Source: Lutjanus erythropterus
Lineage: Eukaryota; Chordata; Actinopteri; Lutjaniformes; Lutjanidae
Assembly (NCBI GenBank): GCA_020091685.1
Contig: CM034612.1
Span: forward strand, 25,102,655 to 25,166,654
Length of the DNA stretch: 64,000 nt
Direction: 5' to 3'
Shown here: one piece after another, positions 13,001 through 45,839 of the stretch
Layout of the letters: each line of letters begins with the position of its first letter
Numbering within the stretch: position 1 is the first letter of the stretch
Notes under the pieces: model-generated
Database searches by the model: none
Told to the model about the DNA's origin: nothing
The model's input: the letters and a program-made list of their open reading frames with translations, nothing else
Translations under genes and position numbers: made by a program

Positions 13001-16000
13001 TTAGGGACGATAGGCCAATATAGCTGTGATCAGCCAATATCAGGCTGATAATACAGTCTGGCTCTACAATTAGTTGATCATTAATGCTACCAATGATCAA
13101 ATAAGGAACAACTTGCAATACTAGTTGCTATTTAGAGTTTTCTTTCTAAGTGAAGTTTAAAAATAGCTTTTCATGCAGCAGTTAAGCATGACAGAGAAAA
13201 ATGTGTTTGTTATATTTAAGTTGTACTGTCTTTCTGTCCACAGGTCCTGGCTGAGATGTGTCAGAATGGTTATAAGGACGCTCTACGCTTCCTTGAAGAC
13301 AACAGTGAGTCTTGTGTTACCATAGTGACTCTCAAATAAACTTATCTAGCTATGATCCATCCCTGTCAGCCGGTAGCCTAAGCTTTGGACTGTGTCGCTG
13401 ATTCGTTTTATGGTTCCAGATCTGCTGATGCTGGAGCATCCGACCGCTGGCCTCTCCCTGCCAGAGGGCCCACCCAACTGCTGCTGTAAGGACACGGAGA
13501 CTACCAAAGAGTGGGTGCTCAGGAGGCTTCACCTGCTGCGAACGCCCACTGGTGGCTGGACGAGCAGATCGTTCTGCCCGCGCCTATCAAGAAAGGTGTG
13601 CTGACTCTGTTGGCTTTTAGTTATGAAGATATGTTTGAGGTTACAGGCGTTGTAATGCCTCTTTAAAGGGCGTGTTAATAATGTCATAAACAAGTGGCCA
13701 TGTGATTGACTGGTCGTGTTCCTGTGTGTTTCTCAGTGTTCTGCGAGGCCTGCCAAGACAAATCTGGCCTGTATGCCAAGGTGTCCGGGATGCTGCCTGT
13801 GAGGGTGGCCTCCTACATGCTCATGCCATACACACTCCCTGTGCAGTCGGCCTACTCAGTGGCCCAGAGGTGAGTATAGGTCCAGCTGTGTCTGTGGACC
13901 CAAACTTACAAAAATACATCATGAATTACCACAACATTTGCATTTATAAACTGATAAAGACCACAACAAACTATGGATTTAAAATGTAAATAAAATGTAT
14001 TTATTTAATTATAAAGTTCATTAATCAGATTTGGTGAGTGTAATGTTACATTTCTCACCACCTCTTAATGAACTTACACTGAGATTAATGTTAGAGGCTT
14101 TAGTTTGAAAGGAACAGAGTTTGTATTAACAGTGTAAGACAGAAACTTGACTGAGTCAAAATGAGTATGAGTACACTAGAATGTTGTAGTAATATTATAG
14201 TGATGGCCCACATTTCCCATCATGCATAGTGTTGGACTGAACAGTTGCTGTTTATGTTCCAAAATGCAAATGTTACTTTTAGGGCCTGACTAATGGATTT
14301 TGGAGGCAGATAATGATACCAATATTAGGGAGTAAAACAATTATGATATCAATATATCAACCAATATTTTTATGCAGAATACAATACATAGAATATGGTT
14401 TAAATAAATGTAAACCTGAATTAAGAAAAGATCAAATACACTTAAATGCTGCCTGTAAAGCTAACAAATAAAAATGATCTGCATGATGTTTTGTTAAAGC
14501 AAAAATATATATCAGAGTATATTGGACATGGACTGATATAACTGTGATAGGCCAATATCAGACTGATAATATCCCCTGTGTTGATTTCACTAAAGGTTAA
14601 TGTCACTGAAAGCTGCTTTTTGTCTTTCAATCCACCCTACCTGCCACAATATGACCAATCACACCAATTACACTGATCAAGCAGAAGGAATTAGAAATAA
14701 AAGCCTGTCTCTAATACAAGCCTGCTTCAAATAAAGATCTCTTACTTTCTGCAGTTTAGGTAGATAAAGGCCCTTGTCACTATTTCACTCTAGTAATTGG
14801 AGATCCAAAAAACAGGTCTATGATCCATTTTGGGTTGCAACTCTGAGTTTGGGAAATGCTAAACAATGACAGTATCTCACCTTACAGCAAAGAGAACTAA
14901 ATTCCACTCATGAGGCAAGAGCCAGGTCAAATCTTTTCTGCTCTGCCTCAGGTTTGTGGAGTGGATCCCAGAGGTGCCAGCTGATGTGAGCTGTGTTGGG
15001 TGGCGGGTGGCGATGTACGGCAGGCCTGGAAAGGAGCACCAACCAACTCCATGAGGTGACAAATGATTTTATGTACAGTACGTACAACATTTATTGATTG
15101 AACCATGTGAGAATAACCAACAGGAATGGAGCACAGCTATATTCTTTGTGCTCATTTATAGCAGTATGCTCACTGACCTCTTGTAGTTGCAGTGATTCAC
15201 AATTTTTCAAAACCTTGAAAAACCTATTTTATTGGCTGCTCTGTTTTATAATGACTACTGACTCCTCACTCCTCTTAACTGGCCTATGGGGTCTCAAGTC
15301 ATCAACAGCTGCTTGGCTAAAAACATGAGTAACATTTTGGCCTTTGTTAAGGCTCAAAAAATTACATCCATAGAAAAGTTTTGTTTCATCTTAAACCAAA
15401 ACCTCTGCAGATTAATTTCATACTCAATATGTTATGATCCACTTAAGTTAGGTTTAATAAATCTCCACTGGTTGCATCTGTTTGTTGTGGTGGCATTGCA
15501 GCAGGTGCTTTGCCAACTGTTGCCTGGTGAAGATCTGCACTCTACTAAGTGACATCTTCTAGGGTCCGTTGTTGTCCTTTTTGGGGACATGGGGGTCATG
15601 AAAGTCCGCCAATGGGCTGCTAGCAGCTACAGAACATACATCATTTTATTTGAAAAGAAAGATCAATCACAATACAATGTATAATGATACTAACACAAAA
15701 ACATTATAATATACAGTTCTGATAAAATTCTGTACTCCACTCTTAGAAATAAAGTTGGTAACTAGAACCATAATGGGTTCCACCGCTTGTCTGCATAAGA
15801 GGACCCTTTTGGGTCCTCTTGGAACCTTTCAGATAATTCTATCTAGAACCCTGCTTAAAAGCTTATACTTATAAGAGTTTTTTATCTAAAATGCACTCAG
15901 TGGAAGGTTTCTTTGGATGAAAAGGCTCTAATGGAACCCTTACTTTTAGAAAAACGCCTAGAAACTTTCTTCATACAGGAGTTCTTCAGAAGCAGTGGGT

Positions 16001-18552: not shown

Positions 18553-19844
18553 TGTGATACAGGACCTGCACTTAAACAATGTGGTCAAATTTCCCTCTCT
18601 CTGTGTGGAGCTGGGTGGTGCAAATTTGAATCCGACAGCTGATCCAGACAGCAGCAAGTGTGTTATTGTATGAATATTTTAATGATTGTTCTGGAAGAGT
18701 GTGTCACAATGTACTCAGGATCATGGATGTGTTTTATGACCTGTTTTAATGTACAGCACAGAAATGTTTCTAGTTTTATAGTCTTTCTACAGCCCTTCCT
18801 GTTTGTTTAAAATCTACTCAAAAGTAGCATCTATTCCTCATTCCAACACAGTTAATGCAATCAAGATTTCTTTGTCTCTGCATGAGTTGCTTTCTTTGTC
18901 TGTCTTGTTGTCCTTTCGATCATGTCTATTGATTTTACAGTTGTTTGACATCTCCAGGCGCCATATGGTGTTTCTTTTTGGTTGGTTTTTGGTGACATGA
19001 TACAACAGCCATGGTTACAGAAGAGGATTAGGGCTAAATGTGAAAGTTCCCAGTTTAAAGTCAGATTTAAGAGTTTTTCCCTGAGAATTCTCACTTCAGA
19101 CTCAGAATTCTGACTCTTCTTTCCTCAGAATTCTGACTTTAAACTTACAATTAAAATAAATTTTTCACATCGCCCTAATCCTCTTCTGTACATATTGGAG
19201 TTCTGGCCTCATTTCTTAACGTGCTCAATCTTGCTAGAAAGGGAAGTTATTATTTCCTCTACAAATCTATCTTATTTTGGTGAGAAGAGCATCATCATAA
19301 CCAACAGAAATGACAAAAAAATAAAACCCAGTTAAGACTTAATTTGCCAAAATGAAACACTGATGCTGACTGTGCTGATCAAGAGAGTGCAACCAGTGTT
19401 ACTGCAACATCAGTGTTATCAGTGTACGTGGTCTGACCTCAACTTGTCAATCTGTTTTATGTTTCTCATCACTTGAATGTAAAGTTATGTTAATGCTACT
19501 GTGATATTCTCTTGAGATTAAACATTTTTAAATTGGTTGTTTTGTTTAACAACATTTTGTCATAAAAGCAGTGAAAATGTTTTCAAATCTCTTGGTTTTT
19601 GTTCACAACCCAAAGAGCTTTGTGTCATAAAGGAATAAAGAAACCAGAAAATATTCACATATGAGAAACCAAAATCAAAGAATGTGGATTGATTATTAAA
19701 ATATTAATTTATTCAATCATCATTTATTCATTGTCCATAACCACTTATCCTTGAAGGGTCACGGGGCTGAGTCAGCTGACATTGGGCGAGAGGTGTGGTT
19801 CACCCTGGACAAGTCTCCAGTTCATCACAGGGCTGACACATAGA
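18553..19844. other. pnpla3 3' flank/3' UTR region up to the first duplication unit
   Basis: The stretch begins at the pnpla3 stop codon. An AATAAA at about 19155 is one possible poly(A) signal but sits inside a foldback element; the true 3' end cannot be fixed. It holds the foldback MITE (19019-19187) and the left part of composite repeat copy B (from 19553). Confidence 0.5.
19019..19187. mobile_element. 169-bp foldback MITE with perfect 16-bp ends
   Basis: AGAAGAGGATTAGGGC at 19019-19034 is the exact reverse complement of GCCCTAATCCTCTTCT at 19172-19187. The interior also folds, with CAGAATTCTGA words and TTTAAAGTCAGA/TCTGACTTTAAA on opposite sides. No clear target duplication was seen. 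Confidence 0.85.
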
Positions 19845-19990
19845 GACAGACAGCAGTTCACTCTCACATTCACACCTAGGGGCAATTTAGAGTCACCAAT
19901 TAACCTATAATGCTGCATGTCGTTTGCCTTTTGATTGTATGGGAAAGCGGAGCACCGGAGAGAACCCACGCAGACAAGAGGAGGAGTCCA
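19553..19990. repeat. Composite dispersed repeat, copy B
   Basis: Nearly identical to 17060-17480 in the same orientation. The right part continues into the first tandem unit at 19845. Confidence 0.8.
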
Positions 19991-21597
19991 CACAGAGAGG
20001 CCGGCTGGGATTCAAACTCAGGACCTTCTTGCTGTGATTATCAAAATAGCAATAATTAATTTAGTAGTCCATTAATCATTGATAAGTTGTCACAGCTCTA
20101 CAGATGCTTTTTGGACAAGCATGTGTGTTAAGGATGTAACAATAAATAGAATATCATGATACTGAATAAAGAATTTCTCAGTATCGTTCTGGACTGTGAC
20201 AATATATACCATGATATTAGCTGGGTAATTATTTTATTTGATTATTTTGTGAAAGAACAGCTGATGGCTCTGCATTGCTTTTGTTTTGCAGTTTTTACCT
20301 ACATAATTCAAGCAACCCAGAACTCTCGATCTATCTTTGTTCCTGCTCTCACCTATGCTCATGAAGGGCGGGTCATGATACAAGCAGCTGAAATAGGTTT
20401 TCTCAGGAGGGTGGCTGGCATCTCCCTAGGATAGGTGAGAAGCTCAGTCATATGTGACTGGTCGAGCCGCTGCTGCTTTGCGTGAAAGGAGCCAGTTGAG
20501 GTGGTTCGGGCATCTTGTAAGGATGCTGCATGTCCTTTGCCTTTGTGGGAAAGCCGGGCACCGGAGAGAACCCACGCAGACAAGAGGAGAAGTCTGCACA
20601 GAGAGGCCCTGCCGCAGCCAGAAACTCCTAGCACCCCAGCCGGCTGGGGTTCAAACTCAGGACCTTCTTGCTGTGATGATCAAAATAGCAATAATTAATT
20701 TAGTAGTCCTTTACTGCACAGTACCAGGCAGGATATAGTGGGTATTCACACTATTCCAACCCAACGACATGAGTCTGCATGCCCACATACACCCATCATC
20801 TTCATGTGCCTCACTATCATTGACATGTGTTTTTCATTTTGTGTTTGTCTATCGTGGGCCTTCCTTTAAGCTGCTGAATTTCTCATTTGAGGCATTTGAT
20901 ATTTTCCTCCAAAGCCTGCTTCTCCTGGAAAAGAACCTCTCCATATTACATGCTTTGAGATGAATCTCTGCTTTCTGTTCTTGTTCCATTTCAAACATTT
21001 TTTTAGCTCCTGGATTTCATGTTGGAGAGATTTATTGTTTTGGCCCAAAGCCTCCTTCTCTTTGGAAAATGGACCTTCCATTTCACACGCTGAGATGAAT
21101 CTCTTCTTTTGCTTCCGTTCTGATTCAAGCATTTTCTTCAGCTCTTGAATTTCATTTGGAGGGATTCGTTGTTTTGCTCCAAAGCCATCCTCTTCTGAGA
21201 CAGTGCATTCTCCATCTCAAAGGCTTTCAGGCAAATCTTCTTACTCTGCTCTTGTTCTGTTTGGAGCCTTTTCTTTAGCTCTTGAATTTCACATTGGAGG
21301 GATTCATTGATTTGGCCTAAAATTTCTGTCTCCTGGGAAAGTACACTCTCAACTCCCATGCTTTGAGATGAATCTCCTCTTTCTGCTCCTGTTCTGTTTG
21401 GAGCATTTCCTTTAGCTCTTGAATTTCATTTTGAAGTGATTGATTGTTTTGCTCCAAAGCCTCCTTCTCCTGGGACATCTCACAGGTTTTCAAATGAATC
21501 TTATCTTTCTGCTCCTGTTCTATTTGGAGCATTTCCTTTAGCTCCTGAATTTCACATTGGAGGGATTTGTTGTTTCTCCAAAGCCTCCTTCTCCTGG
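19845..21597. repeat. Tandem segmental duplication, unit 1 (1753 bp)
   Basis: Starts at GACAGACAGC inside the dispersed repeat and ends inside a coiled-coil coding repeat. It contains, in order, dispersed repeat, the block TTTAGTAGTCC to GAACAGCTGATGG, a Rex3-like fragment (about 20290-20530), a second copy of the dispersed-repeat tail (from about 20526), and the 3' end of the coiled-coil gene on the minus strand. Units 2 and 3 have the same order. Confidence 0.85.
20740..21597 (-). pseudogene. Truncated 3'-end copy of the coiled-coil gene, unit 1
   Basis: The minus strand reads coiled-coil units (ETEILGQINESLQCEIQELK, KMLESERKQKKRF, SLQHEIQELKKCLK) and then the unique tail at about 20740-20890. 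It has no N-terminal region and no start of its own; it opens abruptly at the duplication junction. Frameshifts interrupt it. It is a copied 3' fragment of the gene at 25440-32365. Confidence 0.7.
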
Positions 21598-23370
21598 GAC
21601 AGACAGCAATTCACTCTCACATTCACACCTACAGGCAATTTAAAGTCACCAATTAACCTATAATGCTGCATGTCATTTGCCTTTTGATTGTATGGAAAGC
21701 CAGGCACCGGAGAGAACCCACGCAGACAAGAGGAGAAGTCTGCACAGAAAGGCCCTACAGGCAGAAACCCCTAGCACCACAGCCGGCTGGGGATTCAAAC
21801 TCAGGACCTTCTTGCTGTGATTATCAAAATAGCAATAATTAATTTAGTCCATTAATCATTGATAAGTTGTCACAGCTCTACAGAATGCTTTTTGGACAAG
21901 CATGTGTGTTAAGGATGTAACAATAAATAGAATATCATGATATTGAATAAACATTTCTCAGTACCGTACTGGACTGTGACAATATATACCATGATATTAA
22001 CTGGGTAATTATTTTATTTGATTATTTTGTGAAAGAACAGCTGATGGCTCTGCATTGCTTTTGTTTTGCAGTTTTACCTACATAATTCAAGCAACCCAGA
22101 ACTCTGATCTATCTTTGTTCCTGCTCTATGGTCATGAAGGGCGGGTCATGATACAAGCAGCTGAAATAGGTTTTCTCAGGAGGGTGGCTGGCATCTCCCT
22201 TAGGGATAGGGTGAGAAGCTCAGTCATATGTGACTCGGAGTAGAGCCGCTGCTGCCTGCGTGAAAGGAGCCAGTTGAGGTGGTTCGGGCATCTTGTAAGG
22301 ATGCTGCATGTCCTTTGCCTTTGATTGTATGGGAAAGCGGAGCACGGAGAGAACCCACGCAGACAAGAGGAGAAGTCTGCACAGAGAGCCCTGCCGCAGC
22401 CAGAAACTCCTAGCACCCCAGCCGGCTGGGGATTCAAACTCAGGACCTTCTTGCTGTGATGATCAAAATAGCAATAATTAATTTAGTAGTCCTTTACTGC
22501 ACAGTACCAGGCAGGATATAGTGAGTATTCACACTATTCCAACCCCAACGACATGAGTCTGCATGCCCACATACACACCCATCATCTTCATGTGCCTCAC
22601 TATCATAGACAGGTGGTTTTTCATTTTTGTGTTTGTCTATCGTGGGCCTTTCTTTAGCTGCTGAATTTCTCATTTGAGGCATTTGATATTTTCCTCCAAA
22701 GCCTGCTTCTCCATATTACATGCTTTGAGATGAATCTCTGCTTTCTGTTCTTGTTCCATTTCAAACATTTTTTAGCTCCTGGATTTCATATTGAGAGATT
22801 TATTGTTTTGGCCCAAAGCCTCCTTGTCTTTGGAAAATGGACTCTCCATTTCACACGCTTTGAGATGAATCTCTTCTTTTTGCTTCCGTTCTGATTCAAG
22901 CATTTTCTTCAGATCTTGAATTTCATTTTGGAGGGATTCGTTGTTTCGCTCCAAAGCCATCCTCTTCTGAGACAGTGCATTCTCCATCTCAAAGGCTTTC
23001 AGGCAAATCTTCTTACTCTGCTCTTGTTCTGTTTGGAGCCTTTTCTTTAGCTCTTGAATTTCACATTGGAGGGATTCATTGTTTTGCCCCAAAGCCTCCT
23101 TCTCCTGGGACATCTCACAGGTTTTCAAATGAATCTCCTCTTTCTGCTCCTGTTCTGTTTGGAGCCTTTTCTTTAGCTCTTGAATTTCATTTTGGAGGGA
23201 TTGATTGTTTTGCCCCAAAGCCTCCTTCTCCTGGGACAGTGCTCTCTGTCTCAAAGGCTTTCAAACAGATCTCATCTTTCTGCTCCTATTCTGTTTGGAG
23301 CATTTCCTTTAGCTCTTGAATTTCATTTTTGAGGGATTCATTGTTTTGCTCCAAAGCCTCCTTCTCCTGG
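21598..23370. repeat. Tandem segmental duplication, unit 2 (1773 bp)
   Basis: Begins GACAGACAGCAATTCACTC directly after a coiled-coil unit ending CTTCTCCTGG. Same internal order as unit 1 with a few percent of differences, many of them single-base gaps in homopolymers. Confidence 0.88.
22490..23370 (-). pseudogene. Truncated 3'-end copy of the coiled-coil gene, unit 2
   Basis: The minus strand has an open stretch of 160 codons (22772-23254) made of coiled-coil units, then the tail reading NSAAKERPTIDKHKNEKPPV and YDSEAHEDDG at 22494-22682. It is truncated at its 5' side by the unit junction at 23371. Confidence 0.7.
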
Positions 23371-25150
23371 GACAGACAGCAATTCACTATCACATTCACA
23401 TCGTGGGCAATTTAAAGTCACCAATTATCCTATAATGCTGCATGTCGTTTGCCTTTTGATTGTATGGGAAAGCCGAGCACCGGAGAGAACCCACGCAGAC
23501 AAGAGGAGAAGTCTGCACAGAAAGGCCCTACCCGAGCCAGAAACCTCCTAGCACCACAGCCGTGGGGGATTCAAACTCAGGACCTTCTTGCTGTGATTAT
23601 CAAAATAGCAATAATTAATTTAGTAGTCCATTAATCATTGATAAGTTGTCACAGCTCTACAGAATGCTTTTGGACAAGCATGTGTGTTAAGGATGTAACA
23701 ATAAATAGAATATCACGATATTGAATAAAAAGTTCTCAGTATCGTTCTGGACTGACAATATATACCATGATATTAGCTGGGTAATTATTTTATTTGATTA
23801 TTTTGTGAAAGAACAGCTGATGGCTCTGCATTGCTTTTGTTTTGCAGTTTTTACTACATAATTCAAGCAACCCAGAACTAACGATCTATCTTTGTTCCTG
23901 CTCTCACCTATGGTCATGAAGGCGGGTCATGATACAAGCAGCTGAAATAGGTTTTCTCAGGAGGGTGGCTGGCATCTCCCTTAGGGATAGGGTGAAGCTC
24001 AGTCATATGTGACTCGGAGTAGAGCCGCTGCTCCTGCGTGAGAAAGGAGCCAGTTGAGGTGGTTCGGGCATCTTGTAAGGATGCTGCATGTCCTTTGCCT
24101 TTTGATTGTATGGGAAAGCCGGAGCACCGGAGAGAACCCACGCAGACAAGAGGAGAAGTCTGCACAGAGAGGCCTGCCGCAGCCAGAAACTCTAGCACCC
24201 CAGCCGGCTGGGGATTCAAACTCAGGACCTTCTTGCTGTGATGATCAAAATAGCAATAATTAATTTAGTAGTCCTTTACTGCACAGTACCAGGCAGGATA
24301 TAGTGAGTATTCACACTATTCCAACCCCAACGACATGAGTCTGCATGCCCACATACACCACCCATCATCTTCATGTGCCTCACTATCATAGACAGGTGGT
24401 TTTTCATTTTTGTGTTTGTCTATCGTGGGCCTTTCTTTAAGCTGCTGAATTTCTCATTTGAGGCATTTGATATTTTCCTCCAAAGCCTGCTTCTCCATAT
24501 TACATGCTTTGAGATGAATCTCTGCTTTCTGTTCTTGTTCCATTTCAAACATTTTTTAGCTCCTGGATTTCATATTGGAGAGATTTATTGTTTTGGCCCA
24601 AAGCCTCCTTGTCTTTGGAAAATGGACTCTCCATTTCACACGCTTTGAGATGAATCTCTTCTTTTGCTTCCGTTCTGATTCAAGCATTTTCTTCAGATCT
24701 TGAATTTCATTTTGGAGGATTCGTTGTTTCGCTCCAAAGCCATCCTCTTCTGAGACAGTGCATTCTCCATCTCAAAGGCTTTCAGGCAAATCTTCTTACT
24801 CTGCTCTTGTTCTGTTTGGAGCCTTTTCTTTAGCTCTTGAATTTCACATTGGAGATTGATTGTTTTGCCCCAAAGCCTCTTTCTCCTGTGACATCTCACA
24901 GGTTTTCAAATGAATCTCCTCTTTCTGCTCCTGTTCTGTTTGGAGCCTTTTCTTTAGCTCTTGAATTTCATTTTTGAGGATTGATTGTTTTGCCCCAAAG
25001 CCTCCTTCTCCTGGGACAGTGCACTCTCTGTCTCAAAGGCTTTCAAACAGATCTCATCTTTCTGCTCCTATTCTGTTTGGAGCATTTCCTTTAGCTCTTG
25101 AATTTCATTTTGAGGATTCATTGTTTTGCTCCAAAGCCTCCTTCTCCTGG
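23371..25150. repeat. Tandem segmental duplication, unit 3 (1780 bp)
   Basis: Begins GACAGACAGCAATTCACTA after CTTCTCCTGG, the same breakpoint as unit 2. Internal order is as in units 1 and 2. Confidence 0.88.
24290..25150 (-). pseudogene. Truncated 3'-end copy of the coiled-coil gene, unit 3
   Basis: About six minus-strand coiled-coil units with several one-base gaps (for example GGAGGATTC where other units have GGAGGGATTC), followed by the same unique tail. Most similar to the unit 2 copy. Confidence 0.7.
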
Positions 25151-25440
25151 GACAGACAGCAATTCACTATCATTCACATCGTCGGGCAATTTAAAGTCAC
25201 CAATTATCCTATAATGCTGCATGTCGTTTGCCTTTTGATTGTATGGGACCGAACACCGGAGAGAACCCACGCAGACAAGAGGAGAAGTCTGCACAGAGGC
25301 CTGCCGCGGCCAGAAACTCCTAGCACCCCAGCCGGCTGGGGTTCAAACTCAGGACCTTCTTGCTGTGATGATCAAAATAGCAATAATTAATTTAGTAGTC
25401 CTTTACTGCACAGTACCAGGCAGGATATAGTGAGTATTCA
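25151..25440. repeat. Tandem duplication, shortened unit 4
   Basis: Begins with the same GACAGACAGC junction but reaches the coiled-coil tail after about 280 bp instead of about 930 bp. The first half matches the first dispersed-repeat tail of other units and the second half (TTTAGTAGTCCTTTACTGC) matches the second. The missing ~650 bp therefore fits recombination between the two internal tails. Confidence 0.8.
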
Positions 25441-28400
25441 CTATTCCAACCCCAACGACATGAGTCTGCATGCCCACATACACCACCCATCATCTTCATG
25501 TGCCTCACTATCATAGACAAGTGGTTTTTCATTTTTGTGTTTGTCTATCGTGGGCCTTCCTTTAGCTGCTGAATTTCATTTGAGGCATTTGATATTTTCC
25601 TCAAAGCCTGCTTCTCCTGGAAAGAACCCTCTCCATATTACATGCTTTGAGATGAATCTCTGCTTTCTGTTCTTGTTCCATTTCAAACATTTTTGTAGCT
25701 CCTGGATTTCATGTTGGAGAGATTTATTGTTTTGGCCCAAAGCCTCCTTCTCTTTGGAAAATGGACTCTCCATTTCACACGCTTTGAGATGAATCTCTTC
25801 TTTTGCTTCAGTTCTGATTCAAGCCTTTTCTTTAGCTCTTGAATTTCATTTTGGAGGGATTGATTGTTTTGCCCCAAAGCCTCCTTCTCCTGGGACAGTG
25901 CACTCTCTGTCTCAAAGGCTTTCAAACAGATCTCCTCTTTCTGCTCCTTTTCTGTTTGGAGCCTTTTCTTTAGCTCTTGAATTTCATTTTGGAGGGATTG
26001 ATTGTTTTGCTCCCAAAGCCTCCTTCTCCTGGGACATCTCACAGGTTTTCAAATGAATCTCCTCTTTCTGCTCCTGTTCTGTTTGGAGCCTTTTCTTTAG
26101 CTCTTGAATTTCATTTTGGAGGATTGATTGTTTTGCCCCAAGCCTCCTTCTCCTGGGACAGTGCACTCTCTGTCTCAAAGGCTTTCAAACAGATCTCCTC
26201 TTTCTGCTCCTGTTCTGCTGGAGCATTTTCTTTAGCTCTTGAATTTCATTTTGGAGGATTCATTGTTTTGCTCCAAAGCCTCCTTCTCCTGGGACATCTC
26301 ACAGGTTTTCAAATGAATCTCCTCTTTCTGCTCCTGTTCTCTTTGGAGTCTTTTCTTTAGCTCTTGAATGTCATTTTGGAGGGATTCATTGATTTGGCCT
26401 AAAATCTCTGTCTCCTGGGAAAATACACTCTCAACTCCATGCTTTGAGATGAATCTCTCTTTCTGCTCCTGTTCTGTTTGGAGCATTTCCTTTAGCTCTT
26501 GAATTTCATTTTGGAGGGATTGATTGTTTTGCCCCAAAGCCTCCTTCTCCTGGGACAATGCACTCTCTGTCTCAAGGCTTTCAAACAGATCTCTCTCTTT
26601 CTGCTCCTGTTCTGTTTGAAGCATTTCCTTTAGTTCCTGAATTTCACATTGGAGGATTCATTGTTTTGCTCCAAAGCCTCCTTCTCCTGTGACATCTCAC
26701 AGGTTTTCAAATGAATCTCCTCTTTCTGCTCCTGTTCTGTTTGGAGCCTTTTCTTTAGCTCTTGAATTTCATTTTGGAGGATTGATTGTTTTGCCCAAAG
26801 CCTCCTTCTCCTGGGACAGTGCACTCTCTGTCTCAAAGGCTTTCAAACAGATCTCCTCTTTCTGCTCCTGTTGTGTTTGGAGCCTTTTCTTTAGCTCTTG
26901 AATTTCATTTGGAGGATTGATTGTTTTGCCCCAAAGCCTCCTCCTTCTCCTGGGACAGTGCACTCTCTGTCTCAAAGGCTCAAACAGATCTCCTCTTTCT
27001 GCTCCTGTGTGTTTGGAGCCTTTTCTTTAGCTCTTGAATTTCATTTTGGAGGGATTCATTGTTTTGCCCCAAAGCCTCCTTCTCCTGGGACAGTGCACTC
27101 TCTGTCTCAAGGCTTTCAAACAGATCTCATCTTTCTGCTCCTGTTCTGTTTGGAGCATTTCCTTTAGCTCTGAATTTCACATTGGAGGGATTCATTGTTT
27201 TGCTCCAAAGCCTCCTTCTCCTGTGACATCTCACAGGTTTTCAAATGAATCTCCTCTTTCTGCTCCTGTTCTGTTTGGAGCCTTTTCTTTAGCTCTTGAA
27301 TTTCATTTTGGAGGGATTGATTGTTTTGCCCAAAGCCTCCTTCTCCTGGGACAATGCACTCTCTGTCTCAAAGGCTTTCAAGCAGATCTCCTCTTTCTGC
27401 TCCTGTTCTGTTTGGAGCCTTTTCTTTAGCTCTTGAATTTCATTTTGGAGGGATTGATTGTTTTGCCCTAAAGCCTCCTTCTCCTGGGACAGTGCACTCT
27501 CTGTCTCAAAGTTTTTCAAACAGATCTCCTCTTTGTGCTCCTGTTCTGTTTGGAGCCTTTTCTTTTAGCTCTTGAATTTCATTTTGGAGGATTGATTGTT
27601 TTGCTCCAAAGCCTCCTTCTCCTGGGACATCTCACAGGTTTTCAAATGAATCTCCTCTTTCTGCTCCTGTTCTGTTTGGAGCCTTTTCTTTAGCTCTTGA
27701 ATTTCATTTTGGTGGATTCATTGATTTGGCCTAAAATCTCTGTCTCCTGGGAAAGTACACTCTCCAACTCCATGATTTGAGATGAATCTCCTCTTTTCTG
27801 CTCTTGTTCTGTTTGGAGCATTTCTTTTAGCTCCTGAATTTCATTTTGGAGATTCATTGTTTTGCTCCAAGCCTCCTTCTCCTGTGACATCTCACAGGTT
27901 TTCAAATGAATCTCCTCTTTCTGCTCCTGTTCTGTTTGGAGCCTTTTCTTTAGCTCTTGAATTTCATTTTGGAGGGATTGATTGTTTTGCTCCAAAGCCT
28001 CCTTCTCCCAGAACATCTCATAGGTTTTCAAATGAATCTCCTCTTTCTGCTCATGTTCTGTTTGGAGCCTTTTCTTTAGCTCTTGAATTTCATTTTGGAG
28101 GGATTGATTGTTTTGCCCCAAAGCCTCTTTCTCCTGTGACATCTCACAGGTTTTCAAATGAATCTCCTCTTTCTGCTCCTGTTCTGTTTGGAGCCTTTTC
28201 TTTAGCTCTTGAATTTCACATTGGAGGATTCATTGTTTTGCTCCAAAGCCTCCTTCTCCTGTGACATCTCACAGGTTTTCAAATGAATCTCCTCTTTCTG
28301 CGCTGTTCTGTTTGGAGCCTTTTCTTTAGCTCTTGAATTTCATTTTGGAGGATTGATTGTTTTGCCCCAAAGCCTCCTTCTCCTGGGACAGTGCACTCTC

Positions 28401-31400
28401 TGTCTCAAAGGCTTTCAAACAGATCTCCTCTTTGTGCTCCTGTTCTGTTTGGAGCCTTTTCTTTAGCTCTTGAATTTCATTTTGGAGGGATTGATTGTTT
28501 TGCTCCAAAGCCTCCTTCTCCTGGGACATCTCACAGGTTTTCAAATTAATCTCCTCTTTCTGCTCCTGTTCTGTTTGGAGCCTTTTCTTTAGCTCTTGAA
28601 TTTCATTTTGGTGGATTCATTGATTGGCCTAAAATCTCTGTCTCCTGGAAAAGTACACTCTCCAACTCCATGATTTGAGATGAATCTCCTCTTTCTGCTC
28701 TTGTTCTGTTTTGGAGCATTTCTTTTAGCTCCTGAATTTCATTTTGGAGGATTCATTGTTTTGCTCCAAAGCTTCCTTCTCCTGTGACATCTCACAGGTT
28801 TTCAAATGAATCTCCTCTTTCTGCTCCTGTTCTGTTTGGAGCCTTTTCTTTAGCTCTTGAATTTCATTTTGGAGGATTGATTGTTTTGCCCCAAAGCCTC
28901 CTTCTCCTGGGACAGTGCACTCTCTGTCTCAAAGGCTTTCAAACAGATCTCCTCTTTCTGCTCCTGTTGTGTTTGGAGCCTTTTCTTTAGCTCTTGAATT
29001 TCATGGAGAGATTGATTGTTTTGCCCAAAGCCTCCTTCTCCTGGGACAGTGCACTCTCTCTCTCTCAAAGGCTTTCAAACAGATCTCATCTTTCTGCTCC
29101 TGTTCTGTTTGGAGCATTTCCTTTAGCTCCTGAATTTCACATTGGGAGGGATTTGTTTTGCTCCAAAGCCTCCTTCTCCTGTGACATCTCACAGGTTTTC
29201 AAATGAATCTCCTCTTTCTGCTCCTGTTCTGTTTGGAGCCTTTTCTTTAGCTCTTGAATTTCATTTTGGAGGGATTGATTGTTTTGCTCCAAAGCCTCCT
29301 TCTCCCAGAACATCTCATAGGTTTTCAAATGAATCTCCTCTTTCTGCTCATGTTCTGTTTGGAGCCTTTTCTTTAGCTCTTGAATTTCATTTTGGAGGGA
29401 TTGATTGTTTTGCCCAAAGCCTCTTTCTCTGTGACATCTCACAGGTTTTCAAATGAATCTCCTCTTTCTGCTCCTGTTCTGTTTGGAGCCTTTTCTTTAG
29501 CTCTTGAATTTCATTTTGGAGGGATTGATTGTTTTGCCCCAAAGCCTCCTTCTCCTGGGACAGTGCCTCTCTCTCTCAAAGGCTTTCAAACAGATCGCAT
29601 CTTTCTGCTCCTGTTCTGTTTGGAGCATTTCCTTTAGCTCCTGAATTTCACATTGGAGGGATTCATTGTTTTGCTCCAAAGCCTCCTTCTCCTGTGACAT
29701 CTCACAGGTTTTCAAATGAATCTCCTCTTTCTGCTCCTGTTCTGTTTGGAGCCTTTTCTTTAGCTCTTGAATTTCATTTTGGAGGGATTGATTGTTTTGC
29801 TCCAAAGCCTCCTTCTCCCAGAACATCTCATAGGTTTTCAAATGAATCTCCTCTTTCTGCTCATGTTCTGTTTGGAGCCTTTTCTTTAGCTCTTGAATTT
29901 CATTTTGGAGGGATTGATTGTTTTGCCCAAAGCCTCTTTCTCCTGTGACATCTCACAGGTTTTCAAATGAATCTCCTCTTTCTGCTCCTGTTCTGTTTGG
30001 AGCCTTTTCTTTAGCTCTTGAATTTCATTTTGGAGGATTGATTGTTTTGCCCCAAAGCCTCCTTGTCCTGGGACAGTGCACTCTCTGTCTCAAAGGCTTT
30101 CAAACAGATCTCCTCTTTCTGCTCCTGTTCTGTTTGGAGCCTTTTCTTTAGCTCTTGAATTTCATTTTGGAGGGATTGATTGTTTGCCCCAAAGCCTCTT
30201 TCTCCTGTGACATCTCACAGGTTTTCAAATGAATCTCCTCTTTCTGCTCCTGTTCTGTTTGGAGCCTTTTCTTTAGCTCTTGAATTTCATTTTGGAGGGA
30301 TTGATTGTTTTGCTCCAAAGCCTCCTTCTCCTGGGACATCTCACAGGTTTTCAAATGAATCTCCTCCTTCTGCTCCTGTTCTGTTTGGAGCCTTTTCTTA
30401 AGCTCTTGAATTTCATTTTGGAGGGATTGATTGTTTTGCCCCAAAGCCTCCTTCTCCTGTGACATCTCACAGGTTTTCAAATGAATCTCCTCTTTCTGCT
30501 CCTGTTCTGTTTGGAGCCTTTTCTTTAGCTCTTGAATTTCATTTTGGAGGGATTGATTGTTTTGCCCCAAAGCCTCCTTCTCCTGGGACAATGCACTCTC
30601 CATCTCAAAGGCTTTCAAACAGATCTCATCTTTCTGCACCTGTTCTGTTTGGAGCATTTCCTTTAGCTCCTGAATTTACATTGGAGGATTCATTGTTTTG
30701 CTCCAAAGCCTCCTTCTCCTGGGACATCTCACAGGTTTTCAAATGAATCTCTCTTTCTGCTCCTGTTCTGTTTGGAGCCTTTTCTTTAGCTCTTGAATTT
30801 CATTTTGGAGGGATTGATTGTTTTGCCCCAAAGCCTCCTTCTCCTGGGACAATGCACTCTCCATCTCAAAGGCTTTCAAACAGATCTCATCTTTCTGCAC
30901 CTGTTCTGTTTGGAGCATTTCCTTTAGCTCCTGAATTTCACATTGGAGGGATTCATTGTTTTGCTCCAAAGCCTCCTTCTCCTGGGACATCTCACAGGTT
31001 TTCAAATGAATCTCCTCTTCTGCTCCTGTTCTGTTTGGAGCCTTTTCTTTAGCTCTTGAATTTCATTTTGGAGGGATTCATTGTTTTGCCCAAAGCCTCC
31101 TTCTCCCAGAACATCTCATAGGTTTTCAAATGAATCTCCTCTTTCTGCTCCTGTTCTGTTTGGAGCCTTTTCTTTAGCTCTTGAATTTCATTTTGGAGGG
31201 ATTGATTGTTTTGCCCCAAAGCCTCCTTCTCCTGGGACAGTGCACTCTCTGTCTCAAAGGCTTTCAAACAGATCTCCTCTTTCTGCTCCTGTTCTGTTTG
31301 GAGCCTTTTCTTTAGCTCTTGAATTTCATTTTGGAGGGATTGATTGTTTTGCTCCAAAGTCTTCTTCTCCTGGGATATCTCATAGATTTTCAAATGAATC

Positions 31401-32365
31401 TCCTCCTTCTGCTCCTTTTCTGCTTGAAGCATTTGCTTTAGCTCTTGATTTTCTTTTGGAGGAATTCATTGTTTTGCCTGAAATCTTCCTCTCCTGGGAC
31501 AGTGCATTATCCATCTCAAAGACTTGGAAATGAGTCTCTTCTTTCTGCTCTGTTCTCTTTGGAGCAATTTTCTTAGCTGTTGAATATCATTTTGGAGGGA
31601 TTTCTTTCCTCCCAAGTCTTACTCTGCTGAGACATTTCACTTTGTAACTCACACACTTTCAATTTAACTTCCTCATTCTGGCCCATTTGGTACATGTTCT
31701 TTATCTCCTGAATATCCTGTTGGAGGGATTCATTGTTTTGGCTTAAAATTTCGGTGTCCTCGGACAGCGCACCCACCATCTGAATGGCATGCATACAAAT
31801 TCTCTCTTTCTGCTCCTGTTGTGTTTGGAGCATTTTCTTTAGCTCTTGAATTTTGTGCTGGAGTGATTCGTTTTGACTTTGGTGGGCGGCCTCCTGTTCC
31901 TTCTTCGCAATCATATCAGTATGAAGGACAGCATTCCTCCTTCAATTGACTGACCTCATCGACAAGTGATTGGTTTTGATGAAAGCTTCACGGCGAATCT
32001 CTGCTTTCTGTTCCTTTTCCATCTGGAGCATTTTCTCAAGCTCCTGAAGTTGACATTGTTGTTCAGTATTATTGTTTTCAGCAATGTTGTTGAAATCATT
32101 AACCCAGCCCCAAATTGTGGACGTCTTCCAATATTTTGTTCAGACCGTGGATACACATCTCATTCATCTCCACCCGGCAGAAAGCCTTCCTCATCTTTTT
32201 CCTTTTCCGAGCACGTTTGGATGCACAAAAACAAGATTGGCTTGTCGTGTCATCCTGGTTGTCCTCACTGAGAGCCCTGATTTGTTGGATTAGACATTCA
32301 ATGTGTTGGGCCACCTTCTCAGTGGTTCTGCAGATGTTATCATAAACTGCAACTGTTTGTGCCAT
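25440..32365 (-). CDS. Giant tandem-repeat coiled-coil protein, frame interrupted; unrecognised gene
   Basis: I do not recognise the family. The ATG at 32365-32363 opens an 88-codon unique N-terminal part (MAQTVAVYDNICRTTEKVAQ to LEDVHNLG) with a basic cluster SKRARKRKKMRK that could be a nuclear signal. After a frame change come QLQELEKMLQMEKEQKAEI and divergent coiled-coil units (31450-31920). Then come roughly 40-45 near-identical units of 42 residues (SLQNEIQELKKRLQTEQEQK ... MSQEKEALGQNNQ) or 46 residues (with ETESALSQEK). A short tail near 25440-25570 (KHKNEKPPVYDSEAHEDDG) ends at a stop near 25442. Composition is Glu/Gln/Lys-rich with no membrane segment. Repeat style recalls golgin- or trichohyalin-like proteins without implying homology. 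Dozens of one-base gaps break the frame: either assembly error or a pseudogene. An AG acceptor (GACCTACAG) lies 17 bases before the ATG, so a 5' UTR exon may exist upstream. Confidence 0.55.
25690..31450 (-). repeat. 126/138-bp coding tandem array
   Basis: Successive copies of the plus-strand anchor TTGAATTTCA are 126 bp apart (30280 to 30406) or 138 bp apart (31181 to 31319). A few intervals are one or two bases short, for example 125 bp from 30155 to 30280. The copies are over 90% alike by eye. The array shows higher-order structure with repeats near 512 bp and 900 bp. Plus-strand ORFs across it are antisense shadows. Confidence 0.92.
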
Positions 32366-32446
32366 TTTCTGTTTCCTATCACCTGTAGGTCAAAAAGCCT
32401 CTTTCTGCTGTAGGGTTACCAGAAGTTTAACGTTAAGTTAACCTCT

Positions 32447-32493
32447 TTCAATAATAATAATAGTAATAATAATAATAATAATAAAATAATAAT
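32447..32493. repeat. (AAT)n microsatellite, imperfect
   Basis: AATAATAATAATAGTAATAATAAT-type run in the divergent intergenic region. Confidence 0.9.
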
Positions 32494-33034
32494 AATTCAA
32501 GTAAATGTTGTTTGTCACAATAAAGCAAATCCTTTGATAGGTAATGTAAGCTTCTCGAGTCCTGTTTATGTAATACCATCAAAGGACATAATAACAGATA
32601 ATCAAATACATGACGTCATCAAGGGAACAATGACGTCATGTTGTCGCGCCGTCAACGCTCTTTTTTTTTATCTTTATTTAAAAAGCAATGCAGTACAGTG
32701 CAACACAATACAATGTGAAGACAACCGCCAGAGGCTACAAACATTCAGGGCAGCACCTCGGAACATTACACTACACAAATATATCGAAAAGAGCACACAA
32801 ATCAAGAGTCTTAATGGCTTTCATATTAGTGGAATGTCTAATAGTTTCAATATATTGTTTGACCTTATTGTCAAAGACAGAAATTTAGAAAATAAAATTT
32901 GGTATGAAATTCCAGATTGAAAATGGGTTTTTGATTAATTGTTTAAACCCATTTATTCCGTCCAAGGCTCATTCTACACATTCTGTTGGATGATGTGACA
33001 CTGCGCATGCGTCAGGCTCACCAAGCAACAGTCG

Positions 33035-33238
33035 TTCTAGAAGGCAACCTCAGATCCGCGAAAGATCTCGTGAGAATGGTCGTTTTAATCTTAAATCCTG
33101 ATCGTTCCCGCACCCAAAGCAAGCGGTTACTAGGTACAGATTTGAACCACAGCGTAGTCAACTTCTAAAACATAGTTAGCTTGTACAATGTACAGAATGA
33201 ATAGACAAGGCGTGCAAATCTCGCGAGTGTTTCGCAAA
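33035..33238 (+). promoter_or_regulatory. Repeat with TCTCGCGAG palindromes at the snx4 5' end
   Basis: TCTCGTGAGA lies at 33066-33075 and TCTCGCGAGT at 33219-33228, the latter about 60 bp before the snx4 ATG. The block aligns, in the same orientation, with 49745-49970 inside ttll12 intron 1. TCTCGCGAGA is a known vertebrate core-promoter element bound by BANP and discussed for ZBTB33; a role here is inference. Confidence 0.5.
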
Positions 33239-33268
33239 TTAACGGTTTCCTTTCGAGACGCGACCACC

Positions 33269-33334
33269 ATGAACATCAGGAGAGAGGAGGATGGCGGAAG
33301 ATGGCAGAGACGAGTCAGTGGGTACCGACGATGA
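33269..33334 (+). other. Upstream ORF overlapping the snx4 start
   Basis: An ATG in strong context (ACCACCATGA) opens a 21-codon frame ending TGA at 33332-33334. It overlaps the snx4 start at 33291 in another frame. If the transcript includes it, it would lower snx4 translation. No transcript evidence is available. Confidence 0.45.
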
Positions 33335-36300
33335 TTCAGAGCACACAGCTGCGGACGGCAGTAGCAGCCTGAACAACACGGTAAAAAAAGGTTTCTTCTC
33401 CTTGTTTTAGTCGTTAAACTGCTCTTACCGGAGGCATGGCAGCTGGTAACGTGAGCTACATCGTGGCTTTCGATCTTTGGCCAACAGTTAAAGCTCAGGG
33501 TAGAGCTAGCATAGAATATGCTCCAGACAAGCTAGCTAAATATGTGAAGTTGAAATACACGTTACTATATTTAGGAATATTTCAATCATTCATGTAAATT
33601 GTTTTCGTCATAATGTACTCAAATGTCGTGTATGAGTCAACTGTCAGTGTGCTGTTGTTTCCATTGCTAACGTTGGTTTGTCTTTTAAATAATCTTTCAT
33701 AGTTGATAAGGACAGGTGTTAGCTAGAAGAATCAATGAGCAGACCGGTGTGAACAATAATATAAACTAAATGTCTTGTAAAGAGTTTCATCATATGGCAA
33801 AAAAGAAAGGAGGAAAAAAGAAAGAAAGATTCTGTCAGTCATTTAAATGAGAAACCTTCTCAAAGTACTGAGTTAATATCTTAGTGTATGTTCACATTTT
33901 CCCTGCCACTCAGTAGATACTATAGATGTTGTTCACAGAAGCCATTTTGACATGAACCAGTAGTGTAAAAACATGTGTTACCAGTGATACTTTTAAGGTT
34001 CCATTAAGGATCCATTCCATTCAGGTCACACTGAGACAGGGTGCTACTATTCTCCTTGTTTGCTCATTGGAAAAGGTTTGCTACATTAAATGGAAGCAGC
34101 CCTTAAAGGGATAGTTCACCCAGAAATGAAAATTCATTCATTATCTACTCACTCTCATGCCGATTGGTTTAGTGTTTTAGTCCACAAAACACTGCTGGAT
34201 TTTCACAGGAAAACAGTGTTAAATAATCTCCCAAACAATGAATGGTGACCAGTTTTCAAGTGTAAAGAACACCTGAAAAAAGCATAAAATGCCCCCATAC
34301 TACTCATCTGGTGTAATCCATATCTCAAGCCCTGGCATATCATTAACTTGAGTGCACGCATCCTCATGCAATACACACCCAGATTAGATGATGTGCATGT
34401 GAGCGTGGCTCCAAGCTAAGAATCTACAGTGAAGATTCAGGCTAAAAACATGGTGTAAATCATGTCTTTCAAGTCAACTTGGCATGTCAGGGCTCTAGGA
34501 GACTTTATTATTTTCTCTATTAATCAATTAGTTGTTTGGTACATGAAGTGTTAATCACTGTTTTCCAAAGTGCAATGTGACATCCTTAAATAACTTGTTT
34601 TGTCCACAACAGTCATTTCATTATATTGGCTTTCATGAATTGGCAGAAATGGGCTTGTATACATTTTTGTTAATGATACTGTAATGTGATGGTTCAGATG
34701 GTGGAAGAGGGCTCCACGCTCCTTCGCAGAATGGAGATCTGTGTCGCTGAGGCGGAGAAAAGGAGCGGCAAAAATGCAGTGAACATGCAGGAGACGTTCA
34801 CTGTGTACCTCATTGAAACACGGTGAGAATAGCGCTGCCTCTGTCAGTCATTTGAAATGGAGTGGTGTTGGTTGAACTGAGATGTTCTGATATGCATTTA
34901 TCTGCACTTCCTTGTTTTAACTCTGTTGCATGAATGTACTTCTGCTTTTGTCACTGTGCAAAAATAACTTAACAAATAAAATTGTTAACTTGTACTGTGG
35001 CTTCATCTTTAAAGGCCAATGGATGCGGTCGCTGACGGCCGTAACCCAGCCCCTGACTCTCTGTGGAGGAGATACAGTGAATTTGAACTGCTGCGGAATT
35101 ACTTAATAGTCACCTACCCCTACATCGTGGTCCCCCCTCTGCCTGAGAAGAGGGTGAGTGCAGTGTCTCTGCTTTCCAAACCCTGTTGACTCATACTCAA
35201 AGGATGCAGTGTAATGTCTAATATAATGTCACAGCACAGGCCACCAAATGAATTCAGCAATGCACTTGAATCTAAATTCGTTGTTTAGAAAAACAGAGAT
35301 AATCGATTACTCTATTAATCGTTGCAGCTCTAATCTGAATTCTGTGTTGTAAGACATTTGTGCCAGGTTACACACACTTAACCTACACATAGCTGCTACA
35401 ACAGCCTGGTGATGTCTGACAGTAAAATCAAAATTATATGAGAACTGCAGCAATTAATTGATTATCAATCCATTGTTAAATGAATCACCAACTGTTTTGA
35501 TAAACTGATTAATTGGTTTGTGTAATTATGTAAGAAAAAGAAGGCAAAATTCTTCTTAAATGTGTTCTTAAATGATTTTTTTCTGGTTGTTTTTGTATTG
35601 TGGGCAAAACAAGACATGTGAGGATGTCCTCTTGGGTTTTGGAAAACACTGATCAACAGTTTTCACAATTTTCTGACATTTTACAGACCGAACAACTAAT
35701 AGATCAATTGAGAAAATAATCAACAATGAAAATAATCGTTAGCTGTAGCCCAAATTTATATCATTGAAATGGTATCAGCACCTCCCAGAATTTCCTACGG
35801 GTTGTTTATATTGTAGAGCAACACATATCACACTCAGTGTTGTGCTGTTGGACTGAATATCAGCACTAGGCGTGGGTAGTAAGGACCGGTAATGAATTGG
35901 TAGCGATTTCTGATTGGTCAGTACTGAAGCATTGATAAGCTCCTGGATAAATGGTGCTGCTGTCGATAATTATGTAATGTTAATTTGCTGTAAAGACCAC
36001 AACTGTGGGGTGTTTTATTCTACTTAGAATACAACTGCTGTGAAACAATCAGAAAATAACATTTTATTTCTCTGATTCAATGGACTCAACTGTGTGTATT
36101 ACAACAAATGCACCGAAACATACAACTGATGAAAAACAGCCAAGCTTAAGGAAAGAAACTGCAGGGGAAACGTTGAATGCAGACAGTGTATGTTCTCTTG
36201 CATGCAGGCAGAGTTCGTGTGGCACAAGCTGTCAGCAGACAACATGGACCCAGACTTCGTGGAGCGCCGCAGGGTCGGCCTGGAGAACTTTCTGCTTCGT

Positions 36301-39300
36301 GTGGCATCACATCCAGTCCTCTCCAATGACAAGATCCTCTACCATTTCCTCACTGAGGTACGCACTGCAGCTCTGGGTCCAATCAGCAGTTCAGTCACTT
36401 ATACTGTACATCAGTGGCTGAGTGAATAACTGTTTTCACTGCCTTGTGTTGCAGGAACACGGCTGGAAGGAAGTGGTCTATGAGACAGGATTTCAGGCAA
36501 AGGTAGTGGACTTTTGTGGAACTTCTGTCTCTTTATTCTTACAAAGATTTTCACAAAGCTTGACCACCTCCTGTTGCTCGTGTTGCAGGCAGATTCCAGG
36601 CTGAGAGCTCTCAGTGCCACCTTCAGGGTGAGAAGTCCAGATAAGTAAGTAGTGTGTCCTAAATACTCTGTAACAGGGACTCAGTTGTATTAAAAATGTT
36701 GTCAAAAGATACCATTAATGTCACAGTAATTCATCCCCAGTTATTAAAAGGGAGATTTTAAAGTTGAGTCAGTTAACTAAGATTGATAAAATGTTAGCAG
36801 AAGTGTCTGAGAGGCTGAAATCAGAGAATTTGGACATTTGTTCTTAAAAAAAAATACTCAGAACAATGAATTCATTATCAAAATGTTTAAATGTTAAAAG
36901 CTGACAACTGAGGCCATTTTCTCCCCTGTAGTTTGGTTTATTTGGGCCGGACCAAAAGAAAAAAAAGAGACGTTGTGTTTTAGTCCCAGTCCAGTTCATG
37001 TTCACATTTATTTTTTAAATACGAACCAAGAGGAGGAAGCATGCAGTTTCACAGACTGACAGGTAAATCCTTGATTTGACAGTTTTGGTGATTGTCATCC
37101 TGCATCATTATTGCATCATCAGGACCCACGTGGGAAAATCTGATTCTGGCTGACAGAAGTTTGCGCAGCACTTTAATACTTCAGATGTGTGTATTTAAGC
37201 TCACAAAGAAACAACCAGCAAATTGTGGCATGTTATGAATAATGACTGACAGAAATAGGATGAAAAGAAGGCAGAGAGACAGCACGCTGCAGCGCTGCGT
37301 CTGGCAACACAACTGTAGATCTTTATATATTGAATTTACAGAGGTTTTGAGAGGAGAAGAAAAGAATAAGAAGAAAGCATCGGGATTTTTGTTTTCCCCC
37401 GTTCAGACAGAGAGAGAGAAAGGGGGGGGGGGGGGGGCGGACAGCGCATCCGCCCTTCACCTGACTTTTTCGTGTGTGTCATACAGTGGTATTATTGTGG
37501 GATCGCTGTCACACACTTTTTAATCAGACAAAACACACAAAGTAGGATATAAGCACAGCAGTTTGAACAACTTCTGGCCTGTTAACCGGGGAAACAGGTG
37601 CACTTAGGTACTTGCCTCAATATAGTTCATGTCTTATTAATCATACGATCGCCCCCCTCAACACATTTAACGATCAACTGATGGATTTAACATTTGAAGT
37701 CGTGCCAAAATCACATCTTCTATCATAAAATCCTGTTTGGTTCGTTTGCTTTCACACCAACCCAAACGAACCGCACCAAACAGGCAAACGGACCACGGTC
37801 CGTTTTAACCCGACCAAACAAGGCTGGTGTGAAAACACCTTAAATAATCGGTGCAGCTCTAGTTGTACTTGATTGTCCATTTGAAAAGCAACCAAACCCA
37901 AAAAACACTCACAAATCAACAAATGTCTGATATTTTTACTTGAAAAGATAAAGATAAAAAGAATAGTCAACAAGTTGTTGCAGTTTTACAAGTTAAAAGA
38001 AATTGATGAATGAATAAATACATGCACTCCTTCATAAAACTAGGTAGGCAAATGACATTTTAGTCACTGTCTTCTGTGTCTTTATTTTCTCTCACTCAGA
38101 CGCTTCATGGAAATGAAACACTACAGTGATGAGCTGCAGTCTCACACGTCTCAGCTGCTTCGAGCACGAGCAGTAAGTCTCTCTTTCTAACTGTCTTTCT
38201 CTCTCTCACACACACACACACAAACTGAAGTCATGTTTTGTCAAAATCTTTTTAAAAATTGCTACTGAAAATATTTGAAATAATACTTTGCCTGATTTCA
38301 GGTAGATTATTTCTCATTTCACCAATTTAATTGTATTAATTCAGCCTTATTTTACTGTTTACTCACAAACTAGCTTTATCTGTTCACTTTGCTTTTTCCC
38401 TTCAGTTATTTTTTTCTCTCACACATGCACACATACAGTACTATACAGACTGTACCTGCACCTCGGTCTTTTACTGCACACACACGCACACACACACACA
38501 GACACACACACACCTGAGCTGATCTGTTGACTTTCTTTGTCAGCAGGATGTTTTATAAAGTCACCCAAAAAACAGAACTTTGGATTTTCTTTTTCATCTG
38601 CGATTCCCTTTTCACAACAGTAGGTGTCACCCCAGTTCCTGCTTTTAAAGTAACTTGACCCCTTTAGATAGAAATAAAAAAAATCTCCTGACATCTGCTG
38701 GGCTCCTTAGAGTGATTTTTTACAATCTGCAGTTTTTACTGGTTGAAAACTTAGTGCCACGTATTTTCTGTGTGTCTTCTAGAGGGTTGCAGATCGACTT
38801 TACGGTGTTTACAAGGTCCATGGGAACTACGGAAGAGTCTTCAGGTTTGACATCAAGCATGACAATGTTTCTGTGCATGACTGAAAATGGACCTGAATAG
38901 TTGATGAATGTGTTTTGTTTCCATTTTCTCTCATTTTTAAAACCACAGGTCTGTGGTGTTTACTGTAAAGGGCTGCTCAATCTGTATCGAATACACTGTA
39001 CAAGGTTAATCTATTGATCATTTAACAGCACTGGTTTGTATAACGAGATGTTAGTTGTAGTTCCCTTTATACTATTCACAAAAACATAAAAATATTTTCA
39101 ATTTTATATAGAATATTAATTTAATATTTTGTATTTTATAGTATGGTAAAATTGTGCTGAAAATGTGCTTCTGGGACTTGAAGGTAGGCTGAGAGAAGGA
39201 TAGTTAGTTTCAACGTGGTCTATTTGTATGCTGCTGTGTGCAAGTAAACCTGTGAATTGAACTGCACTCTGCTTCTGTTAAATCAGTCTCATCAACGTCA

Positions 39301-45748: not shown

Positions 45749-45839
45749 GACTGAAGCCATATTCAGAGCATGACGCTCAGCTGTGGATGCTGGGAAATGA
45801 TGCCAATGTCTTCAAACAACTACAGAAAAATAACACAAT

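Follow-up and report, generated by a model that had tools for sequence, protein, structure and literature searches.

On the minus strand of contig C22 of the Lutjanus erythropterus assembly we find what we read as one protein-coding gene: its predicted product of ~2,300 residues consists largely of near-identical coiled-coil units, the breaks in its frame would be sequence errors, and the protein would serve as a rod or spacer. We give this reading as a whole a probability of about 0.72. The window, that is, the whole stretch of DNA analysed, comprises 64,000 nucleotides (C22:25102655-25166654; GCA_020091685.1, CM034612.1) of a genome of 937.6 Mb in 444 contigs, and positions without a contig name refer to it. 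Two other copies of the locus, or of parts of it, lie on contig C11: a second copy of the stretch that contains the repeat gene (Table 1) and, at C11:40567562-40574500, a diverged relative within sequence free of gaps (the 40.57-Mb copy).

Table 1. Main features of the repeat-gene locus, in window positions
Feature	Position	Strand	Remarks
Doubled stretch	12028..34004		recurs at C11:40602285-40624424; looks unpolished in the window
Identical block	17285..30924		13,640 bases, the same as C11:40607656-40621295, frame breaks included
Three tandem 1.78-kb blocks	19999..25405	-	91-96% alike; C-terminal-type units, tail, retroelement-like sequence (last by eye)
Short unique C-terminal tail	25440..25591	-	frame-broken; by eye against ORFs of other copies
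45-unit array	25592..31467	-	24 units have 42 residues, 21 have 46; 1,921 codons read, none a stop
Diverged coiled-coil region	31468..31942	-	
Start codon and unique N-terminal region	31943..32365	-	ATG 32365-32363
Two TGACGTCA sites	32611..32638		starts 20 bases apart; kept in all three copies
CpG-rich stretch between divergent genes	32751..33750		observed/expected 1.01, 1.05 and 0.88 (500-base steps that overlap)
snx4 exons 1-4	33291..36426	+	start codon 33291; runs across 34004

The repeat array and its ends

Units were counted by wrap-around alignment of 25590-31500 to a 126-base and a 138-base template, with two end fragments dropped; this was used instead of a fixed-anchor search, which returned only 22 unit starts. 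The alignment yields 45 full units from 31467 down to 25592 on the minus strand, in good agreement with the roughly 40-45 near-identical units of 42/46 residues that the first-pass annotation had claimed for this strand. Tandem Repeats Finder detects a period of 126 at 25771-31602 (44.7 copies) and a period of 387 at 25652-31602. Units of the same type differ on average by 4.0% (42 residues) or 11.2% (46 residues), and those of the long array carry distinct substitutions in a definite order. Three short arrays at 20996-25155 belong to a 1.78-kb tandem block that repeats the 3' part of the gene.

The coding nature of the array is most evident from the stops. They were counted in the aligned frame with gap-holding codons omitted, as were the nonsynonymous/synonymous (N/S) ratios. 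The sense frame has none, whereas the five other frames have 13, 60, 87, 105 and 115. Distinct changes relative to the templates amount in the sense frame to 73 nonsynonymous, 31 synonymous and one nominal stop (N/S 0.73); this stop occurs in four units and each time a neighbouring change makes the codon read Trp. Under neutrality ~6.4% of changes would create a stop, i.e. ~7 of 105, and by our own arithmetic the chance of seeing zero is ~0.001 if the changes are taken as independent, which those of related units are not. The N/S ratio alone is a weak separator, because it spans 0.79-1.31 in the five other frames and one antisense frame reaches 0.79, so that it is the stop counts that carry the point. 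With the sense frame alone lacking stops, the array is, judging by its sequence, one that evolved as coding sequence. A gene on the opposite strand was considered and rejected, as its frame contains 13 stops and does not reach the N-terminus.

Upstream of the units lies an N-terminal part of ~300 residues, a unique head followed by diverged coiled coil. The proposed gene end at 32365 holds, for the ATG begins there. The 88-residue start proposed for the protein is borne out as a unique N-terminus but not in its length: the figure of 88 results from a frame break at 32107; with two extra bases there, the second copy stays open beyond this point. Relative to that copy the unique region lacks bases at 32107, 31973 and 31936, and such small deletions account for the broken N-terminal frame of the window. 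As a query against the whole genome, the 88-residue N-terminus finds the window, the C11 piece and the 40.57-Mb copy, and no fourth place at E 0.001. The head includes a basic stretch, KRARKRKKMRK, which by eye resembles a nuclear localisation signal. Directly before the ATG there is, also by eye, a splice-acceptor-like sequence, and a non-coding first exon is therefore possible. At the other end, the short unique tail that had been described is indeed present near 25440-25590.

The doubled stretch, the frame breaks and the alternatives

The copy on C11 is flanked by gaps of 500 N on both sides (C11:40601785-40602284 and C11:40624425-40624924). Over 13,640 bases it shares every indel with the window, which suggests one sequence used twice; part of the locus thus appears to have been assembled into two places. 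One long read may have been used to fill both gaps, or a single contig may have been retained in duplicate. Exon 1 of snx4 lies inside the doubled stretch and exons 2-4 follow outside it, in order, on C22, while the C11 piece ends between exons 1 and 2. On the other side, an ORF at 11913-12308, by eye continuing a LINE, runs across 12028. As both snx4 and the LINE ORF cross the borders of the doubled stretch on C22, this contig is likely the true site, and the piece on C11 would be a fragment. The LINE itself occupies 9810-12308 on the plus strand with several ORFs, including an RVT_1 domain in 9810-10673 (Pfam). On C11, a provirus-like element with large ORFs is located at C11:40629319-40638046, near the contig end.

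False gene duplications in vertebrate assemblies have reportedly been described by Ko et al. in 2022. Those that occur beside gaps, with read errors as one source, are documented (PMC9516828), and the gap-bounded C11 duplicate resembles them in both respects. It differs in that the duplicate belongs to a different contig of chromosome size and in that the criteria of that paper are read depth and k-mers, whereas the C11 case is argued from the assembly sequence.

The doubling bears directly on the length of the array. In the C11 copy, a single ORF of 517 residues at the better-corrected end joins the unique N-terminus to the units; the first three units are ordered as in the window, and then come units of the C-terminal type. 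Since the array sequence was left uncorrected by the assembly and the C11 end departs after the third unit, the number and order of units in the 45-unit array are uncertain. One might go further and suppose that the gene is real but that its 45-unit length is a product of assembly, the true array having only ~5-9 units. The C11 end just described would fit such a gene, as would the 7-9 units of the 40.57-Mb copy. Nonetheless, we regard this as unlikely, because the units of the long array carry their own substitutions in a definite order and because the short-array form joins the long-array form abruptly within the second copy, at C11:40621295, as in a collapsed short-read contig.

As assembled, 25 of the 45 units have a net frameshift, so the frame breaks noticed earlier are there. 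They had cast doubt on a live gene and are now best explained by uncorrected long-read errors in the doubled stretch. The array lacks 58 bases and has 12 extra ones; 37 of the missing bases belong to runs of 3-4, where the per-base deletion rate is 0.016-0.020 as against 0.005-0.006 in shorter runs (~three to four times). A similar picture emerges when the window is compared with the C11 copy over 8,486 aligned bases (12028-16040; 16060-17990, partly in the identical block; and 31450-34004, the comparison omitting 30925-31449, where unit order differs). The window has 58 small deletions, of which 30 fall in runs of at least three bases and 28 elsewhere, versus two small insertions, and outside the identical block substitutions amount to 0.7-1.15%. 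Against the 40.57-Mb copy, the counts for the window are 22 small deletions and four insertions within the doubled stretch (3,494 bases), versus no deletions and two insertions immediately outside it (1,557 bases). Long runs in the window are in most parts scarcer inside the doubled stretch than outside; those of A/T in 31600-34004 are not scarce, and this, like the 28 deletions outside such runs of bases, weighs against the error reading. The breaks being mostly losses concentrated in runs of 3-4, the broken frame most likely reflects uncorrected long-read errors, at least as far as the sequence can tell. There is a precedent in short-read polishing, in which reads are drawn to whichever copy of a repeat is free of errors, so that homopolymer errors persist in the other (Polypolish; PMC8812927). 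The likeness is that one repeat copy is left with errors; the difference is that the assemblies of that report are bacterial, whereas the genome here is of 937.6 Mb.

If the frameshifts were real instead, the array would be a pseudogene, the remains of a decayed gene. Besides the large share of frameshifted units, this could be argued from the 40.57-Mb copy. There a 486-residue ORF joins the N-terminus to the units, but ACG replaces the ATG, and between the N-termini of the two C11 copies (118 codons) dN/dS is 1.09, with 20 nonsynonymous and four synonymous changes. Together, the high ratio and the lost start codon show that constraint is weak on at least one of the copies. Decay of the window gene nevertheless appears quite unlikely. 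No stop has accumulated in 1,921 codons, the N-terminal parts of both other copies are open, the indels depend on short runs and affect non-coding parts of the doubled stretch as well, and they are identical in two places. We therefore reject a real pseudogene, in view of the absence of stops and the error-like indels.

Still less probable, as the origin of the second C11 piece, is a genuine segmental duplication of recent date with no assembly error involved. A diverged copy does lie ~30 kb away in the same C11 record, with gaps between, and the substitutions outside the identical block would suit two separate loci. However, the piece is bounded by N at both ends, stops within snx4 and repeats even the frame breaks over the identical block. 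Finally, it is very unlikely that the array is non-coding satellite DNA whose open frames, on one strand or the other, arose by chance: one antisense frame does come close to being open, with 13 stops in 1,920 codons, but only the sense frame is stop-free, and in both other copies single sense ORFs link the unique N-terminus to the units.

Flanking genes and a proposed shared promoter region

The repeat gene stands head-to-head with a gene that we take to be snx4, their start codons being 926 bases apart. The PX domain of the latter is recognised at 36133-36426 (Pfam), and 7 of the 11 sequences matched by the PX ORF among solved structures are sorting nexins; the name SNX4 is tentative and relies on sequence motifs, those of exons 2-4 being located at 34749, 35076 and 36223. 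A CpG-rich promoter region common to both genes would drive the repeat gene in the direction opposite to snx4. The two TGACGTCA sites, presumably of CRE type, are the only exact ones in the window, and at least two occurred anywhere in 8 of 100 shuffles. The 40.57-Mb copy aligns in pieces with window 15059-38345 and retains a truncated snx4 with exons 1-3. It has no match at E 1e-5 to 35592-37733 and consequently none to exon 4.

Farther away, two plus-strand ORFs at 52818-56345 have a tubulin-tyrosine-ligase SET-like domain (Pfam); we assume, partly from sequence motifs, that they are probably ttll12 exons, and the ttll12-like ORF matched no solved structure. A plus-strand ORF at 7785-8108 resembles by eye a patatin-like phospholipase, and its name pnpla is likewise our assumption, made partly from such motifs; Pfam gave no match for this ORF or for 45333-45770.

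Family searches, the predicted rod and its meaning

Nothing in Pfam, NCBIfam or solved structures accounts for the N-terminus. Its eight matches to solved structures all have E 0.88-2.5, and the 517-residue ORF has none at E 0.01. The FEZ-like family PF07763 scores 16.9 bits (E 0.0056) in Pfam, under the curated cut-off of 28.1, and membership was rejected. Among the Pfam matches listed, only HALZ (PF02183) reaches its cut-off, on the repeats, with 38.8 bits in the 486-residue ORF and 34.0 and 28.7 bits in two window pieces, and no end domain is recognised. As no homeobox is found beside it among the Pfam matches of the ORFs scanned, we take HALZ for a coiled-coil cross-match and reject family membership. 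The NCBIfam matches of the 517-residue ORF, TrlF (21.6 of 350 bits) and LegC2/C7 (17.3 of 350 bits), are far under cut-off and were set aside as coiled-coil noise; the 486-residue ORF has no NCBIfam match. Searches by title and abstract retrieved no fitting fish gene, which does not imply absence from print, and no fitting work on raw-read gap filling in teleosts.

The structural predictions agree with a rod. For 174 window residues AlphaFold2 gives one helix (residues 2-165; mean pLDDT 93.4), whereas the N-terminus (87 residues, Met omitted) yields a poor model, two weak helices with a mean pLDDT of 50.8. The 42-residue unit corresponds to six heptads with a hydrophobic a/d stripe, I, L, M, V or F being found at 7 of 12 a/d positions, a value reached by 25 of 20,000 shuffles. 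For the four extra residues of the 46-residue unit, a register scan singled out no one place; a coiled coil can absorb four residues as a stutter. A coiled-coil dimer is not proven by a single predicted helix. Taken with the lack of stops and the low divergence between units, the helix nevertheless upholds the view of the first-pass annotation that this is a long coiled-coil coding gene with multiplied similar units.

Our working model is accordingly phrased as a prediction, that of a long spacer or scaffold. The units would form one continuous coiled coil of ~290 nm (1,974 residues x 0.1485 nm = ~293 nm), and a short, partly basic head and a tail could hold partners at either end. The length of such a spacer would be set by the number of units, which may shift by unequal exchange between near-identical units. 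Golgins, TPR/MLP and centrosomal coiled-coil proteins are long coiled-coil scaffolds or tethers, and the repeat gene shares with them a long heptad-repeat rod with small ends. It differs from them in its near-identical tandem units of 42/46 residues and in that no end domain is recognised among the Pfam matches listed. Golgins carry a GRIP or GRAB domain or a C-terminal membrane anchor; no such family is present among the Pfam matches listed for the ORFs and for one copy of the tail other than the frame-broken one of the main gene.

It is tempting to speculate that this is a gene confined to one fish lineage, with its expression driven from the snx4 promoter region, which encodes a spacer of variable length with a fast-evolving head and a unit number that changes quickly by unequal exchange. 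Units would then vary between alleles and between copies (~5-9 in the two other copies and 45 here). We hold this fuller picture to be improbable as it stands.

The locus illustrates that broken frames can be a residue of assembly when the units of a repeat gene are homogenised, in which case annotation pipelines would discard a real gene or divide it, and that one error-bearing sequence can end up on two chromosome-sized contigs. If the length of the array truly varies between fish, the gene would offer a compact case of change in the length of a coiled-coil rod.
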